Origin: Tubulanus polymorphus
Lineage: Eukaryota; Nemertea; Palaeonemertea; Tubulaniformes; Tubulanidae
Direction of reading: 5' to 3'
Assembly (NCBI RefSeq): GCF_964204645.1
Contig: NC_134028.1
Span: 14,931,263 to 14,995,262, forward strand
DNA: 64,000 nt
Shown: one piece after another, positions 20,601 through 29,600 of the stretch
Numbering within the stretch: position 1 is the stretch's first letter
Layout: each line of letters starts with the position of its first letter
The notes under the pieces: generated by a model
Databases searched by the model: none
What the model saw: only the letters and a program-made list of their open reading frames with translations
Told to the model about the DNA's origin: nothing
Translations under genes and position numbers: made by a program

Positions 20601-23600
20601 CCGTCTTTCTGCGATTCCGTCTTTCTGCGATATGACAACACCGTATTTACACTAGGCTCCCGGAAAACGAATCTGCGGGTTCCGGGGACAACTATGTCCG
20701 CCGGGGACAACGTCGACCGCGGCCGGCCGGAAGAGAATAACAATGAACCCGGGGACAATGTCTGGGCGGCAATAACCTATTTACATGCTCTATCACAAGG
20801 CGAGCTGACACGGTCCGGGTGTCCAAAGGTGGACACGTGGACAACGGTTCTTACATTTTTCACTCAAAACTGGAAAGCGTAACTGATCGTCTTTTGTTCT
20901 ACTCTGGCGGCGCTTGAAGTAGCCCGGACAGTCCGAATGAACGGTTTGTTGTTCAATCTTGCGCGCTGCTCGCCTTTTATAGAGCGGGATTGTCCCCTCC
21001 GTGCTCCCATTGGCTGGAACAAAGCTCGGACACGCGTGATTGGTCACGCGTGCCACGTGACTTCGAGGTTGGCTGAGTTCCAGCGACAATGAGGGCGGAG
21101 CCGGGCAACCGCGCCGGCTACAAAAAGGTCGCGGCGGACGCAAGAAAGAAACAACACAACAACTAATGATAAAACGGTAAATAAATGCTATACATCACAA
21201 AGAAATAGGCTATGTTCTAGGAAAGAAAATAGAGTAAGAAGGGTTCGAACCCCGCACTCCGAAAGGTATACAAAATAATCACAAATACAATTCAACCAGA
21301 AGGGTTAAAATGAGTAGATGCGGGCCCGGAATACCAGACGCGAAACATCGACCAATTTACACGGACATTTAATAACGATGCTACGCGGTCTCGACGAATT
21401 AATACACATAACAAAAGACATTAAACAGGATACATATATATACACAATAAATACGCAGCGGTGAAATCCAGGAGAAAGGTGATTTAAAAAACGCACCAAA
21501 ATTTTGGCGAGACCGGAAATTTTACTACAGGGGTAACGAAAACACTCAAAATATTGTCAGTGACAAGCGGTCATCCTTATTACCGAGATGTTGTATTTTA
21601 CCGAGATCAACCGAGATGAAATGAAATATAACATATTTATTTATTCCTTATCGATTTTAACAATTGAAATCATATTATATCAGTAACAAATGCCTGCTGG
21701 AGTAATATTTGACACATTTTGTCGGATATTTTTGTAGAAAAATAACCCAACTTTACCGAGATGAGATCGTCGATCAATCAAATTCATCGCGAAACTCATA
21801 AAAATGAAAAATAAATTCTCACACGCTCGAATTTATTTTTCATTTTTATGAGTTTCACTCCTAATTCAAGTAGAAATTGTAATTATTTTCATGTTTTTCA
21901 TTTTTTACTCACCCGCCCGTTCAACCTTTAACCTGAAAGCCTATTACCCCTATTACTCTTAAAATAATCATATACATGAATAACATTTAAATTGATAGAT
22001 TATTCAATATAAAAGTGTGAGCTCTTATAGAATAGATATATAGATATATTTACAACATTATTTCAATATTTATATTTGTATAAGTTAGATTTTTAAACAT
22101 TAAAAGTGTTAGTAAAGTGTGATTGAAATAATACATGATATAAATCATTGAACTTCTAAAATCAAAAAAAAAAAATTTAGTATTAAAATGGAAGCAAATA
22201 AGTACTACTGTCCAACATGTAATATCAATATAGATAAATCCCAAAAAGCAAGACACAGTAAAACTAAAACACATTTAGAGAATGAATTGAAACTAGAATA
22301 TAAAGATGATATATTAGAAACTAAATTAGATGAATTAAAGAATGAAAAAGAAACATACAAATGTGATACATGTAATCAATCATTCAGTGATAAAAGATAT
22401 TATAAACAACATTTAAAATCTAAAAGTCATATTAGAAATAAGAATAATGATATTTTAGGTGAAGATTATTTTGATAAAGATAATGATAAGAAACAGAAGA
22501 CAATTAAAAGCATAAAAAATAAATTAAACAATAAAAGACCATACATGGAAGATGTAAGAAATTATATTAATTCATTAGATAATAAGAAAGATATGGAGAT
22601 AACCGAAGCATTCAAAAGTGATATTGGCCCAGCAGCTATCGAGTTTAAATTTCATGAAGGAAAAACATTAGAAGAAAATAAAAAACATTTAGAAAATATG
22701 AAAGAAATAATAAAAATAATAACTGATGTTGAATACCCTAAAATTAGTATATCTTCTAAAGTAAAGTTTATAAAATCTGAAGATAAACCAATATATAATA
22801 TAAATTCTCATTCACAACATATAATATATAAACAACATATAGATGATAAATTAGATAAATGTTATAATGAAGTAAAAACTAAAATAGAAGAGAAATATTT
22901 TGAAGGATCTGGTTTAATATTTGATGAAATAATATTTATGACTTTACATGTTTATAACACAAAATATAATAAGTTAACTAAATCAAAACCAATTGATGAA
23001 AATAATGTATCATATTATAAAGAACCAGATATTGAAGCATCGAGTTATATTAAACTTCCATTTAAAACTAATGCTGTTATAAATGTATGTTATAATCATA
23101 AAATATAACTTTTTTTATGATTATTTTTATTTCCATTTAATTTTTTCAATTTCTTGCTCAATTTCATATTTTCATTCATCAAATCCTTACTAATATTCTC
23201 ATGGTATAAATTAAGCGCAGCTAATATTAATCCTCCTGCTACAAGATAATGTTTCAAATCACTTTTCCCAGTTGGGATGAAACCATCCATTTATTTAAGA
23301 AAGAAATTAAACAGTTTATGAAATATTAAATCATTATATGTTTCAATTCAAATAACAATTAAACTTACTACTAATTCTTTATGCCGCTGAGAATTATATT
23401 TTTGCTTGTGCGTAATCAATTTTATCACCTGATATTCTGTTATATTATTCTTGATCATTTCTTTATCGAAAAATTCATTTGATATGTAAATATTTTCATC
23501 ATTATGAATTAAAAATAGATGGCGTAATTTATTTCTAAAATATCTAGGACTAATGAAATCAATATTATATTCAGAACTATCTTTCAATAGTTCTAAACGC

Positions 23601-26600
23601 TCGCATTGCTTAATTTTCATATTGTTAAATTTCATTTTTCTTAAATAATCAGATTCTTTACGTACATCACATACATTTATAAAATCATTAGAATTTATCT
23701 TTAAATATTCAGTATATTTTTTCATCAATTCAAAATCCATTTTATCAATTATTTCAAAATGATTGTGTGTTATTTTCTTTACTTGGAAAATAGGTTTTTA
23801 ATTTTGATAAAATAAAGTGTCTTTCAGGGCTATGAACGCCTATTTTTAACTTTTCGATGATTTTTTCAATCGAAGACAATTCAAAATAATTATTATTTAA
23901 TACGTCTAATTGTAATGTTTTTATCAATAATTCTCTTAAATCAGTAGTAGTTTCATAAATGCCTTGATCTGTTAAAATATAACTGAAATAAAGATCTGTT
24001 ATACATTTACATTGAGTTGAAAAACCTCTTATTTCAAAAATTGTATTATTGTCAATTCCAGATATTTTAGGAGTATAATCATTTAATTTTACTTCAGGAA
24101 TTATTTCAAGTTTTTTAAATTCTGTCTCAAATAATTCATTATCAATATGTAATTGTTGCTTTAATTCATTACAAATTTTATTTCTATTTTCATCTATATC
24201 TTCTTGTTATTGTTTAAGTTCTTTCATTTCTTCTAACTTTTTAAATTCACTTTTAGATAATAATTTTAAATCAAAATCTTCTTCAATATCAAGTGCATCT
24301 AATTTATAAAAAGGCTTAGATTTTATATCGTATCTCTTTTTTAAAGTTGTAAAACTAATTCCTGTTTCACGTAATTTAAATCTAAATTTAAATTTATTCA
24401 ATACTGTAAACATTGAATTAGTTGAAGATATAACAGTTGCTCCTTCAGTTTTAATATATTTTTTTGCTTCAATAATGAATTCTCATTTATCATCATTTTG
24501 ATTAATTGTTAGGTATAAACATGCGATATTCTTAATTGTAAACATTGATAAAATAAGTAAAAAGGAGGACTCTTCAATATTTTTACTTATCCTAGATTTA
24601 TATCCTGTAAATTTCCTTGCTAATAAATCACCATAATAACAGAAATAAAAGCATTTTTCAATCAAATCATAAATACATACAGTCTGTTGAACCTCATCAA
24701 ATAATGATTTAAGTTGTAAATATGTAGGTGAATAGTAAATATTTTCTTTTTTTAAGTATTGTTTTATTTTTTCTATCACTTTTAATCCTCTTTTAAATGA
24801 AATACTTGTTATTTCAATTCTTATCAATCCTGTTTCAATTGATTTTTCAAATGATTCTTTTAACCTCTCATGATAGCAATTTATGTAACTCATTAAATTT
24901 GAACCGAAATTTATATTTACACCAGGAGATTTGAATTGACATGCTGTTTTATTATAGATCTTTATGTTATCATCCTTATGTAATGCTGAAACACAACTAT
25001 TGGAAAATTCTTTTAGAACTTTATATTTTCTATTTTCGAACATTGATTTTATTTCATCTGAATTAAAGGATCCTTTAAAATCTTGTGTCACATCTACATC
25101 TAATATATTGTAATTTTTTTCATTTAATAATTTTTCAATATTATCCATTTTCTGTATTAATTCATTTAAATTTTGATTGCATAATGAAATTTTAAATACA
25201 GCAATATAATCTGTTAATTTTAATTCTTGATTAATTCTACTTAATATATATGATTTTGAATTATCATCATGAATTGTTAAAACACGTGTAATTTTTATAG
25301 CTAAGTTATCCAATATAATATCTCCTTGATTATACATTCTTTAATTTCATAATGTGTTATCTTTCTCTGATTAACGTTTAGAAAATTTGTTCTATTTTCT
25401 TTAATAATTTCTTTTTCTAACATGATTTTATATAGCATTATATTATCGCAAAATATATCTGATGTTTCAATTAATTCATTATTTTCAGATTTATAATACT
25501 TATTTATATTTACTCCTGAAATATCTGCTAAATTATTGTTAACAGTTAAATAATATAATATTGAATTTATATATTTATTACTCATGTCTTTCGCGGGAAC
25601 TTCAATTAATCTTGAGCACATTTATATATCAAATTTTTATTAAAATAGGTTACAATTCAAAAAGAGTTAGAGTTCGCTGAAACCTTACGCTTTAAAATAT
25701 TTTTTTACCCTTATTGGAATCATAATCTTTTGATAGATATAAAGGTTCTAATGTATAATGTTTTATGTTGTTACCTTTTGTATTTGGTAATTTGATTAAA
25801 TCAAATACATTTATTCTTAGATTATTATCTCTTTCTATTTTTGGGATGTTTTTAATTATAACAGGATACTTATCTATCTTATAATTATTTTCAAATTGTT
25901 TATAATTTGTTAATCTATAAGTATGTTTATTATAATCTTCAACTGGGTGTAAACAACTTATTATAGCCCATAGAAAACATTTATCATCTTCATTTTGTAC
26001 ATTTATAACAGCATTAGTTTTAAATGGTAGTTTAATATAACTCGATGCTTCAATATCTGGTTCTTTATAATATGATACATTATTGTCATCAATTGGTTTT
26101 GATTTAGTTAACTTATTATATTTTGTGTTATAAACATGTAAAGTCATAAATATTATTTCATCAAATATTAAACCAGATCCTTCAAAATATTTCTCTTCTA
26201 TTTTAGTTTTTACTTCATTATAACATTTATCTAATTTATCATCTATATGTTGTTTATATATAATATGTTGTGAATGAGAATTTATATTATATATTGGTTT
26301 ATCTTCAGATTTTATAAACTTTACTTTAGAAGATATACTAATTTTAGGGTATTCAACATCAGTTATTATTTTTATTATTTCTTTCATATTTTCTAAATGT
26401 TTTTTATTTTCTTCTAATGTTTTTCCTTTATGAAATTTAAACTCGATAGCTGCTGGGCCAATATCACTTTTAAATGCTTCGGTTATCTCTATATCTTTTT
26501 TATTATCTAATGAATTAATATAATTTCTTACATCTTCCATGTATGGTCTTTTATTGTTTAATTTATTTTTTATGCTTTTAATTGTCTTCTGTTTCTTATC

Positions 26601-29600
26601 ATTATCTTTATCAAAATAATCTTCACCTAAAATATCATTATTCTTATTTCTAATATGACTTTTAGATTTTAAATGTTCTTTATAATATCTTTTATCACTG
26701 AATGATTGATTACATGTATCACATTTGTATGTTTCTTTTTCATTCTTTAATTCATCTAATTTGGTTTCTAATATATCATCTTGATATTCTAGTTTCAATT
26801 TATTCTCTAAATGTGTTTTAGTTTTATTGTGTCTTGCTTTTTGGGATTTATCTATATTGATATTACATGTTGGACAGTAGTACTTATTTGCTTCCATTTT
26901 AATACTAAATTTTTTTTTAAAATTGATTTTAGAAGTGATTTATATCATGTATTATTTCAATCACACTTTACTAACACTTTTAATGTTTAAAAATCTAACT
27001 TTTACAAATATAAATATTGAAATAATGTTGTAAATATATCTATATATCTATTCTATAAGAGCTCACACTTTTATATTGAATAATCCATCAATTTAAATGT
27101 TATTCATGTATATGATTATTTTAAGAGTAATAGGGGTAATAGGCTTTCAGGTTAAAGGTTGAACGGGCGGGTGAGTAAAAAATGAAAAACATGAAAATAA
27201 TTACAATTTCTACTTGAATTAGGAGTGAAACTCATAAAAATGAAAAATAAATTCGAGCATGTGAGAATTTATTTTTCATTTTTATGAGTTTCGCGAGGTT
27301 CATTGGAATTTGAAAGTGCTTTTTGAAAGAAGCACCACGAGTCTGGTCCATATGGGCATCTCGTATGATGGGGATCTTCGTCCGTGCTTGCACAATGAAG
27401 CAGACTTGTCCATATTGCTGTTCGCATCGCATCCGGGTCGCCAATGTTGTTGATTATAGCGCCACGATAATAATTTTGTAGTTTCTTACATTTTACGGCC
27501 GTAAGGCGCCCGAAGCCATGTCCGCCTAATTTTTTATTTTTTGCTGAATCAAGAAGGGCTTTGCCCATTCGCTTGTGGGCATGATTAACACACTCTTCTT
27601 TCTGAACTAAATTTTGATCGCCATAAATATTCTGACTGCATATGTCGTTGTATGCTTTCGAATCGCCATCACTAAGCATTGTAACATATCTCGACATCGA
27701 TGACTAATCCAGTTAGTAAGTCAATTATGCAAGGAAGTCCATATTTTGAAGTATGACCGCGAGTAAGCCAGCTACCATCAAATGAAACATCGATATTATA
27801 TACACTGTCATCTCCCAATGAAGGATCCCAATGAAGAATATATTTATCAAAAAATGATTTACTTATGTTTTACAAATCAATTATAAGCTACAATTGAAAT
27901 GCCCAAACTCTTATGAACATCTTTGGACTTGGGCCGCCACAAAATTTCTAATTGCTGTATTTGATTAATTACAAGCAATCAAATTCTCAATCCACAAATC
28001 CATTAACTTATCTATTGAAGTTTATTCAGATAAGAAGGTTGCAGTTTAAATTACTCCCTTCAGCCAGTGGTAGGCCTAAGCTTTAAGGGATTTGCCTACA
28101 ATTCTATATTTCGCATAATGATTCTTTCAACATGGGTTCGGCTTATTTAACTTCATCATAGTTCTTGGAGTCACCTTCAAAAGATAAAAGTTTAAATTAA
28201 TCGATCCTTCATCGAGTACTTTTGGATCTTCTTCAGCTATGAAGATCCCAGGCCTAACGCAACTTGGTCTAAATTTGAAATTCAAGAATTCTTACTCGAT
28301 CACTAATATTTTCTTACCAATCAACTGAATGCATGAATCCTGATTAAATAGAGGAAGCTGGGGTAAATATGATCAGTTTGATACCTATCATGATGTCTTT
28401 TTGGGTTTGAAATACTTTCCGGGCGCCGGCAACCATTTTGATCCAAAGAATCAATTGTTGCTATAGTGGTTACCATGGCAACCAATTTATATGTGTTGCG
28501 ATGTCTGCGACGGATATATTTATCCCTGTTAAGTTGTAACACAAATGATTAAACATTTATCCTCCGCTTTTAGCTGATAAATATCAATGAAAGATCAATG
28601 AGACCTAGGCAATGAGCCAATTAATAAAGCTAATTACCCTTAATTGGCTTAATTAATGATTAGTTTAAGTTTTATAATCAATAGGGAAACTGTTATTCTG
28701 ATTTTGCCCAAAGTTTGATTGAAATCGGATGACAATTCCCAAAGATATACAAGTTTCTTTTCTACTTTCAATTGTTTCTTAACTAAAAAAATTGATCATT
28801 TGGTCACCATTTGACCTTATGACCTTAAGTTCATTTCCTAATGAAGACTTTATGGCTGAGAAGTGCGATTTTCAGCCGACAAATTCCTTCATAACTTTTG
28901 AACGGCTCAACCGATTTTAGTTCTGTAAATTGCTATGATCTTATATTAAACCCTTCTTTCATTTAGGCCTTTTAAATTGTTTCTATAGTGTTTGGAAAAT
29001 TTTCACTCAAATCCCTACTGTTACTCATTCATTTCTGAAATTTGGGCTTATATTATAAGCCCAAATTTCAGAAATTAATCAAACCTCATGATTTTCTAAT
29101 CTTATATTATAAGATCAAATGAATTTTAATTTTTGCGAGAAAACTACTTGAAAAATTTCTTATAAATTAGGTCTCGGTACCACTGTTTGCTAAAAAGATT
29201 ATTCTTTCGATTTAGATAAAGTGTCATTTTTTAATGGTTTAAAAACTCTTTGTGAAACCATGATGTAACCAATGACATTTCTATGGTGGAAACTGAGAGG
29301 GGTTTTTGCAATATTGAAGAATTTGGACCTGGTAGTTAATTTAGAAATTAGCTCCATTTGGAAATAAAAGGAAGACGAGAAGATTACAACGCATTTCTTA
29401 ATTACCTTCAAAGAGAAAAAAATCGAATACGCGTTGAACGCACGAATCGGAAAATTGTTTTCTGCTAGAAAAAAATTGAATTCGCAGGAAATGAGAATGT
29501 CAGTACTAAAATTGATTTCTTTTGCGAAAAATATACATTTCTTTCTAATCCGCCGGGTACGGTTCAAAATAAGCAATGCACGCGGCCAGCAGTACCGAAT

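Follow-up and report, generated by a model that had tools for sequence, protein, structure and literature searches.

A recurrent gene module joined at one exact nucleotide to Polinton DNA in Tubulanus polymorphus: a possible parasite on a genomic parasite

The element described here occupies positions 21787–27296 of a stretch of 64,000 nucleotides from the genome of the nemertean Tubulanus polymorphus (contig NC_134028.1, positions 14,931,263–14,995,262; hereafter, the window). It is a decayed hybrid in which two Polinton ends surround a separate gene module, and its novelty lies in this recurring module and not in its hairpin ends. The 5' end of the module is found attached at the same nucleotide to many different positions of Polinton DNA, mostly where the uncut Polinton reads on CAAA. 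Site-specific joining of the module 5' end to Polinton DNA is in our view very probable; the cutting pattern is well supported, and the identity of the enzyme encoded by the module's main gene, termed CEN, is moderately supported. The module may be a parasite of a novel kind, one whose host is itself a parasite of the genome.

The genome (268 Mb in 77 contigs; loci taken from it carry L-numbers and contigs C-numbers) was searched with the central DNA of the element. At least 53 matches were returned, corresponding to at least 34 insertions when matches less than 6 kb apart were joined, a rule that could merge neighbours, and 14 of these 34 hold the module in both orientations. The census is a lower bound, 40 of 363 candidates having been scored. 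A search with the CEN protein adds three places and gives at least 62 matches (59 of 109 candidates scored), among which are five 758-codon frames without stops. The original prediction, made from the window alone, would have regarded the element as a one-off chimera if full-length Polintons with the same ends existed in the genome and no other copies of the centre did; such Polintons do exist, but so do at least 33 further insertions of the module, and the window element is therefore not a one-off. The gene order in long copies is CEN (758 amino acids), p64 and p100TM, followed by a stem-loop; p100TM has a weak zinc-finger match and, by eye, a hydrophobic stretch. CEN is, or was until recently, maintained by purifying selection, because the ratio of non-synonymous to synonymous substitution rates (dN/dS) is 0.11–0.61 over 21 pairs of seven copies, two of which are arms of one dimer and two of which have one stop each, and 0.21–0.34 for older copies compared with L013 (six pieces from four copies).

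All 24 module starts detected in a first set of loci lie at the same nucleotide and read CCAATAAGGG, with small variants, in the orientation of CEN (25 starts were printed, one being a duplicate locus). A hold-out set was composed of 18 further ends, chosen for matches that extend to the 5' side or close to it; the shared start nucleotide is present in 15, and the start is lacking in three (L035, L048 and L050). Overall, the 5' end is identical in 39 of the 42 ends, at 28 distinct junctions. Outside this count lie module fragments that lack the start region (e.g. L009:2018-2146 and L020:6915-7471) and the 5'-reaching matches C5:18685639, C6:13888648 and C6:17541895. The sequences found upstream of the module are the zinc-finger open reading frame (ORF) of Polintons, PolB, proteins of 104 and 252 amino acids, an HNH-like ORF, p121, non-coding ends and, once, CEN; at L014:4274-5029 the module is joined to codons 1–214 of another CEN copy, a tandem self-joining at A|CATAAGG. 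Some junctions are common to several loci (L012, L025 and L049; L017 and L027; L019 and L020; L009 and L033; L021, L037, L038 and L042; a second L021 site and L047), as they are to both ends of L018 and both ends of L023. Part of a Polinton terminus could be recognized by eye outside the junction in 21 of the 24 first-set ends; of the three exceptions, one is internal (L014a), one runs past the limit of its locus (L009) and one, L024, has no terminus.

Cut sites were read against the closest uncut relative of each Polinton sequence, which was available for 16 of the 19 first-set junctions. The relative continues CAAA in 13 of these (CATA, CTAA and CCAT in the others), and position +1 is C in all 16. 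Given that CAAA begins at 0.89% of positions in the arms used as background, the binomial P for 13 of 16 is approximately 1e-24 if the junctions are independent. At seven first-set junctions (L009, L011, L012, L014a, L014b, L019 and the window), position +1 is different in more distant relatives. At the nine junctions of a second set, the closest relative continues CAAA in five (L034, L036, L040, L043 and L044, the relative of L043 being 83% identical), CTAA at L039, CC[AT]G at L046 (relatives 80% identical) and TCGA or CCGA at L045, with C in two of three relatives; at L041, the relative whose match extends as far as the junction reads CAAA, whereas the closest relative does not. Over both sets, uncut relatives show CAAA at 18 or 19 of the 25 junctions; by the closest relative, +1 is C at 23 of them. 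Microhomology was considered as the cause of this preference and rejected, since the AAA lies on the side of the cut that is lost. The junctions read N-CCAATAAGGG, whereas annealing through CAA would give N-CAATAAGGG. With the A's on the lost side and two C's kept in the product, neither homology nor annealing explains the preference; the cut site was recognized by something.

The same observations bear on an alternative in which the module encodes no cutter and a separate linear replicon ending in CCAATAAGGG was attached to Polinton strands by template switching or end joining, whether the agent was the Polinton polymerase or host repair. The fixed end of the module could be the end of a DNA molecule, protein-primed polymerases readily switch templates, and the Polinton ends start with AGTAATAGGGGTAA, which loosely resembles CCAATAAGGGTAA. 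However, such joining does not account for the enrichment of AAA on the side that is lost, and annealing through CAA would have left one C fewer at the retained junction; we consider this explanation unlikely.

The protein encoded by CEN is probably an enzyme of the Rep_trans type, an assignment that draws on a structural model and on the order of its invariant residues. Seven relatives, 28–55% identical, were identified in a set of 5.8 billion proteins, all on ENA or JGI contigs of 2–6.3 kb. The Rep_trans motifs, as set out in the available parts of PMC4797284 and PMC5714925, are RxD with a downstream D (motif I), T/SxY/ExG (II), YxK(xxE) (III) and W/LxRxE (IV). Invariant CEN columns match the motif residues at D177, D181, Y223, K225, R268 and E270, on modelled strands. 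In the motif I region D175xD177xT179xD181 is invariant, with the metal-binding aspartate present and the arginine absent. Motif III, whose tyrosine lies on a beta strand in Rep_trans, corresponds to the invariant Y223-N-K225, with residues 232–238 of P0003 overlapping the modelled strand 231–237; the position of its glutamate is occupied by C in CEN and by Q in P0005. Motif IV is present as L266-I-R268-I-E270. The N-terminal domain of CEN models as TBP-like, and RepDE and RepSTK1 occur in one structural match list. A regular expression for the motifs, written after CEN had been read, matches 29 of 30 Rep_trans proteins, CEN and six of its seven relatives, as well as 11 of 100,000 shuffled CEN sequences; the three matches among 275 background ORFs each begin with CEN sequence.

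Against this assignment, no conserved motif II pattern is apparent by eye between motifs I and III, and hhalign comparison of CEN with 30 Rep_trans proteins of the RstA branch remains at control level, giving no sequence-level link to Rep_trans. Searches of Pfam, PHROGs and NCBIfam gave only weak matches for the CEN family, the best in Pfam being DUF5520 (E 0.0057, in one member of six), with phrog_702 'replication protein' at E 0.052 for P0004, and no match to the Rep_trans Pfam family. The CEN alignment gave no lead among PDB sequences at E up to 10, the 110 pattern matches in viral_contigs include no CEN relative, and RepDE and RepSTK1 are not among the 50 matches listed in the Foldseek comparison with the PDB. 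No invariant histidine, and hence no conserved HUH motif, is present in the part common to six aligned CEN relatives, whose C-terminal half is not covered by all.

CEN could instead be a TBP-like DNA-binding protein or some other nuclease unrelated to Rep_trans, with CAAA being cut by, for example, the HNH-like protein or the integrase of Polintons. The lack of a sequence-level link would fit this, as would the structural lists, where TBP is placed level with RepDE or higher; yet the Rep_trans fold is itself TBP-like according to the available parts of PMC4797284 and PMC13107129, and the invariant residues stand in Rep_trans motif order on the modelled strands. This reading is, in our estimation, quite unlikely. 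Whatever the enzyme, the joining of one exact end to 28 positions, most of them marked by a four-base motif, amounts to site-specific strand joining that is unexplained by ordinary deletion.

The copy of the module in the window lies within the following features:
21787–27296, no strand: whole chimeric element, 5.5 kb
21787–23087, plus strand: left Polinton terminal arm, ending ...AAATGTA where the right arm reads on CAAAATG
21791–21856, no strand: left tip palindrome, the inner core of the terminal palindrome, whose outer 96 bp are absent here
22188–23108, plus strand: truncated zinc-finger ORF of 306 amino acids, the N-terminal part of the Polinton PolB gene
23088–23104, no strand: 17-nt filler separating the cut left arm from the module's truncated 3' end
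23105–25717, minus strand: central module, truncated at its 3' end, lacking the p100TM gene and the 3' stem-loop
23096–23290, minus strand: p64, a small ORF in which a hydrophobic stretch is visible by eye and whose residues 1–54 are common to other copies
23351–25621, minus strand: broken CEN gene for a 758-residue, putatively Rep_trans-like protein, in pieces 25621–25331, 25334–23796 and 23797–23351
25708–25717, minus strand: exact module 5' end CCAATAAGGG, the same as in the ends counted above
25718–27296, minus strand: right Polinton terminal arm, cut at ...TATGATT where the relatives L009 and L026 read on CAAA
25692–26897, minus strand: zinc-finger ORF of 401 amino acids with the KCFLW hallmark, its last residues read from the module
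27227–27292, no strand: right tip palindrome

Much of the architecture had been anticipated in the original prediction. The arms of ~1.3 kb are 99% reverse complementary over the pairs 22167–23087/25998–26918 and 21787–22147/26936–27296, and both tips form palindromes with 28-bp stem arms and 10-nt loops. The zinc-finger ORF is present in both arms as described, cut on the left, where residues 1–300 are common to the right copy, and continuing on the right to KCFLW...INVF...PLYLSK; the right arm is longer than the left because its Polinton gene runs to this hallmark before the cut. The reported absence of Polinton enzymes is likewise confirmed, as tblastn (E up to 1e-3) with the polymerase, integrase, ATPase and other Polinton proteins from other loci finds no match in the window apart from the zinc-finger/KCFLW protein. 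The central gene, thought to encode ~600 residues, is in fact a 758-residue gene lying in three frames from 25621 to 23351. No clean 6-bp target duplication is present at the window element, where the flanks read AATTCA and GGTTCA and the outer palindrome halves are missing. The G+C content of the element is ~22%, versus 33–45% in the surrounding region. The window copy is a later, dead product, with CEN frameshifted, the 3' end lost and both arms cut at CAAA (T|CAAA on the right, A|CAAA on the left).

The Polinton origin of the arms, also proposed originally, is borne out by the many Polintons of the genome with the same ends, among them full-length ones. The PolB part of copy L009 has at least 87 matches in the genome (87 of 2221 first-look candidates scored), 23 of them, by our own count, in stop-free frames of 1351–1360 residues; the polymerase is of the viral or organellar type (DNA_pol_B_2, E 4e-7). 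A terminal probe identified at least 40 sites (40 of 1691 candidates scored), each matching on both strands and hence an imperfect palindrome, which measures 267 bp in L013 and of which the window tips are the core. Six pairs of ends are spaced 17.3–18.4 kb apart. One of these elements, C9:7448879-7466726, was read in pieces and contains an rve integrase (E 7e-10) with a chromo-like end, an A32-like ATPase (Pox_A32, E 4e-11), proteins of 252 and 435 amino acids that were considered as jelly-roll capsid candidates and have no Pfam match, and other ORFs. Residues 5–30 of the zinc-finger/polymerase ORF are repeated near its right end, so that arms holding the start of this gene occur, in shorter form, in a full-length Polinton. 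There is no CEN match on C9 among the matches scored in the nucleotide and protein lists, and CEN bears no resemblance to the ORFs in the pieces of the C9 element that were read (best blastp E 0.64).

The tips had been taken for the ends of the element; in other copies, the complete Polinton ends lie ~96 bp further out, beginning with AGTAATAGGG or a close variant, and are palindromic. Target duplications were examined in five derivatives of which both outer ends are complete. Four have exact 6-bp duplications (L015, TATGTA; L018, ACTGCC; L019/L020, GCTAAC; L021, GATAAT) and the fifth, L023, matches at five of six bases (GACGGT/CACGGT). All except L015 are inverted forms, and their position between target duplications indicates that inverted dimers were inserted as units.

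At the other end of the module, long copies extend to a stem-loop containing ACAATAAG. L013/L014 shows an exact fold-back at this stem-loop that generates an inverted dimer with the loop as its axis; the folding z here is −18.8 for 101 nt, with a 47-bp stem inside them that a further fold extends. L016 folds back at the loop for ~150 bp and then continues into another Polinton piece, the axis lies elsewhere in the dimers L012 and L019/L020, and many copies are simply truncated. Junctions with Polinton DNA on the 3' side were read in seven copies; that of the window lies at CAAA and those of L015, L016, L017, L021, L024 and L026 do not.

These features could be united in a mechanism, which we regard as fairly likely, in which a Rep_trans-like nickase module splices its 5' end onto Polinton strands. 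The module would ride on Polintons, with CEN acting as a tyrosine nickase that nicks and then stays on the module 5' end. The exact end and the preferred cut are observed; CEN would produce them by cutting a Polinton strand, probably single-stranded and replicating, at A|CAAA and religating it, with CCAATAAGG and ACAAA as the putative nick and religation sites. The product would be a strand of terminus, arm and module, and an outer Polinton terminus is indeed present in nearly all ends. Copying of this strand around the 3' stem-loop may then yield an inverted dimer that carries two Polinton termini, such fold-back being one way to gain the second terminus. Inverted forms and 6-bp duplications are both seen in the genome, and the dimer would be inserted in trans by the Polinton integrase. 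We give even odds to the reading that the module belongs to a new class of mobile elements in eukaryotes, namely Rep_trans-like transposons that use no HUH enzyme, move by a rolling-circle (or rolling-hairpin) route and live as hyperparasites of Polintons.

The two origins offered in the original prediction each survive in part. The window element is a non-autonomous Polinton derivative, as its deletion derivative mobilised by a Polinton would be, but its centre is a recurrent module, for which a choice between the two origins is insufficient. An ordinary deletion derivative, in which one ancestral chimera gained the module and later copies diverged by deletion, is already largely refuted and very improbable: some junctions are indeed common to several insertions (L012=L025=L049; L021=L037=L038=L042), but 28 positions in genes of both Polinton ends are joined to the same module nucleotide. 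A single ancestral junction is rejected on the same count of 28. The second origin, a separate hairpin-ended replicon with its own replication protein, holds insofar as the centre probably encodes a protein of replication type, and fails for the hairpin telomeres. The tips are strong stem-loops and part of a long palindrome in complete copies, and closed-hairpin replication is expected to mix terminal orientations. However, the better-scoring orientation of the asymmetric palindrome is plus on the left and minus on the right at 12 of 12 ends (the six pairs 17–18 kb apart), with no flip/flop, and the same tips occur on a Polinton with an rve integrase. Closed-hairpin telomeres at the tips were thus rejected, a linear replicon class of this kind is very improbable too, and the tips, unlike such telomeres in their fixed orientation, are best seen as parts of Polinton termini.

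The element was compared with several known systems. Its arms and ends are those of the Polintons (Mavericks) of this genome, with their PolB, rve integrase and A32-like ATPase, and sister derivatives have 6-bp duplications; in contrast, the window element lacks all the Polinton enzymes, and the parts of a full-length copy that were read do not contain its centre. With Rep_trans (PF02486) and the archaeal Rep-Arvir it shares the TBP-like model, the order of metal site and tyrosine, a stem-loop by the genes and junctions in nick-and-join style, but CEN resides in a eukaryotic genome, lacks motif II and is undetected by Pfam or by comparison with the RstA branch. In the available part of PMC13107129, Rep_trans appears restricted to bacteria, and archaeal relatives of its initiators were published in 2026. 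IS91/ISCR elements and Helitrons similarly have one exact end, a short target preference and a variable other end (in part from the available text of PMC5714925). Those elements use HUH enzymes, whereas CEN has no invariant histidine in the part common to six relatives, and nearly all the module junctions seen lie on Polinton DNA. Transpovirons, virophages and defective interfering genomes are also smaller elements exploiting a larger viral replicon, and the inverted-dimer derivatives resemble defective genomes of protein-primed viruses; the module differs in that it encodes a putative enzyme for strand transfer and is joined at an exact site. No comparable system was found in the open-licence literature. 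If the proposed mechanism is true, the TBP-fold initiator superfamily would gain in CEN its first member from a eukaryote, a simple nickase with a short target, and the module would be a parasite of Polintons, themselves virus-like elements of poorly understood mobilisation. The superfamily would then span all three domains, with a eukaryotic Rep_trans relative whose past cuts can still be read.

Several further arrangements were noted at other loci. At L017:6590-7200, a module-bearing end with the full terminal palindrome abuts codons 1–57 of a Polinton integrase, as if inserted there. L026 and L029 together form a 9.5-kb element (C2:16710145-16719625) that contains PolB, a truncated protein of the 252-residue type, CEN, p64, p100TM, remnants of the integrase/ATPase region and p126, and whose left terminus is truncated near the palindrome loop. 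The 104-residue protein that follows PolB at L009:5690-6004 ends in YLPDRF, resembling by eye the end YLPVRF of the long CEN relative P0002, and the two are possibly related domains of the single-strand-binding type. Within the window, a fragment of a Mutator-like transposase gene lies at the right end of the element (27269–27697; PF20700, E 3e-16). Positions 1–604 hold one end of a second element from this Polinton family, with residues 1–40 of the zinc-finger ORF at 122–3 on the minus strand and terminal-palindrome halves at 202–275 and 530–604.

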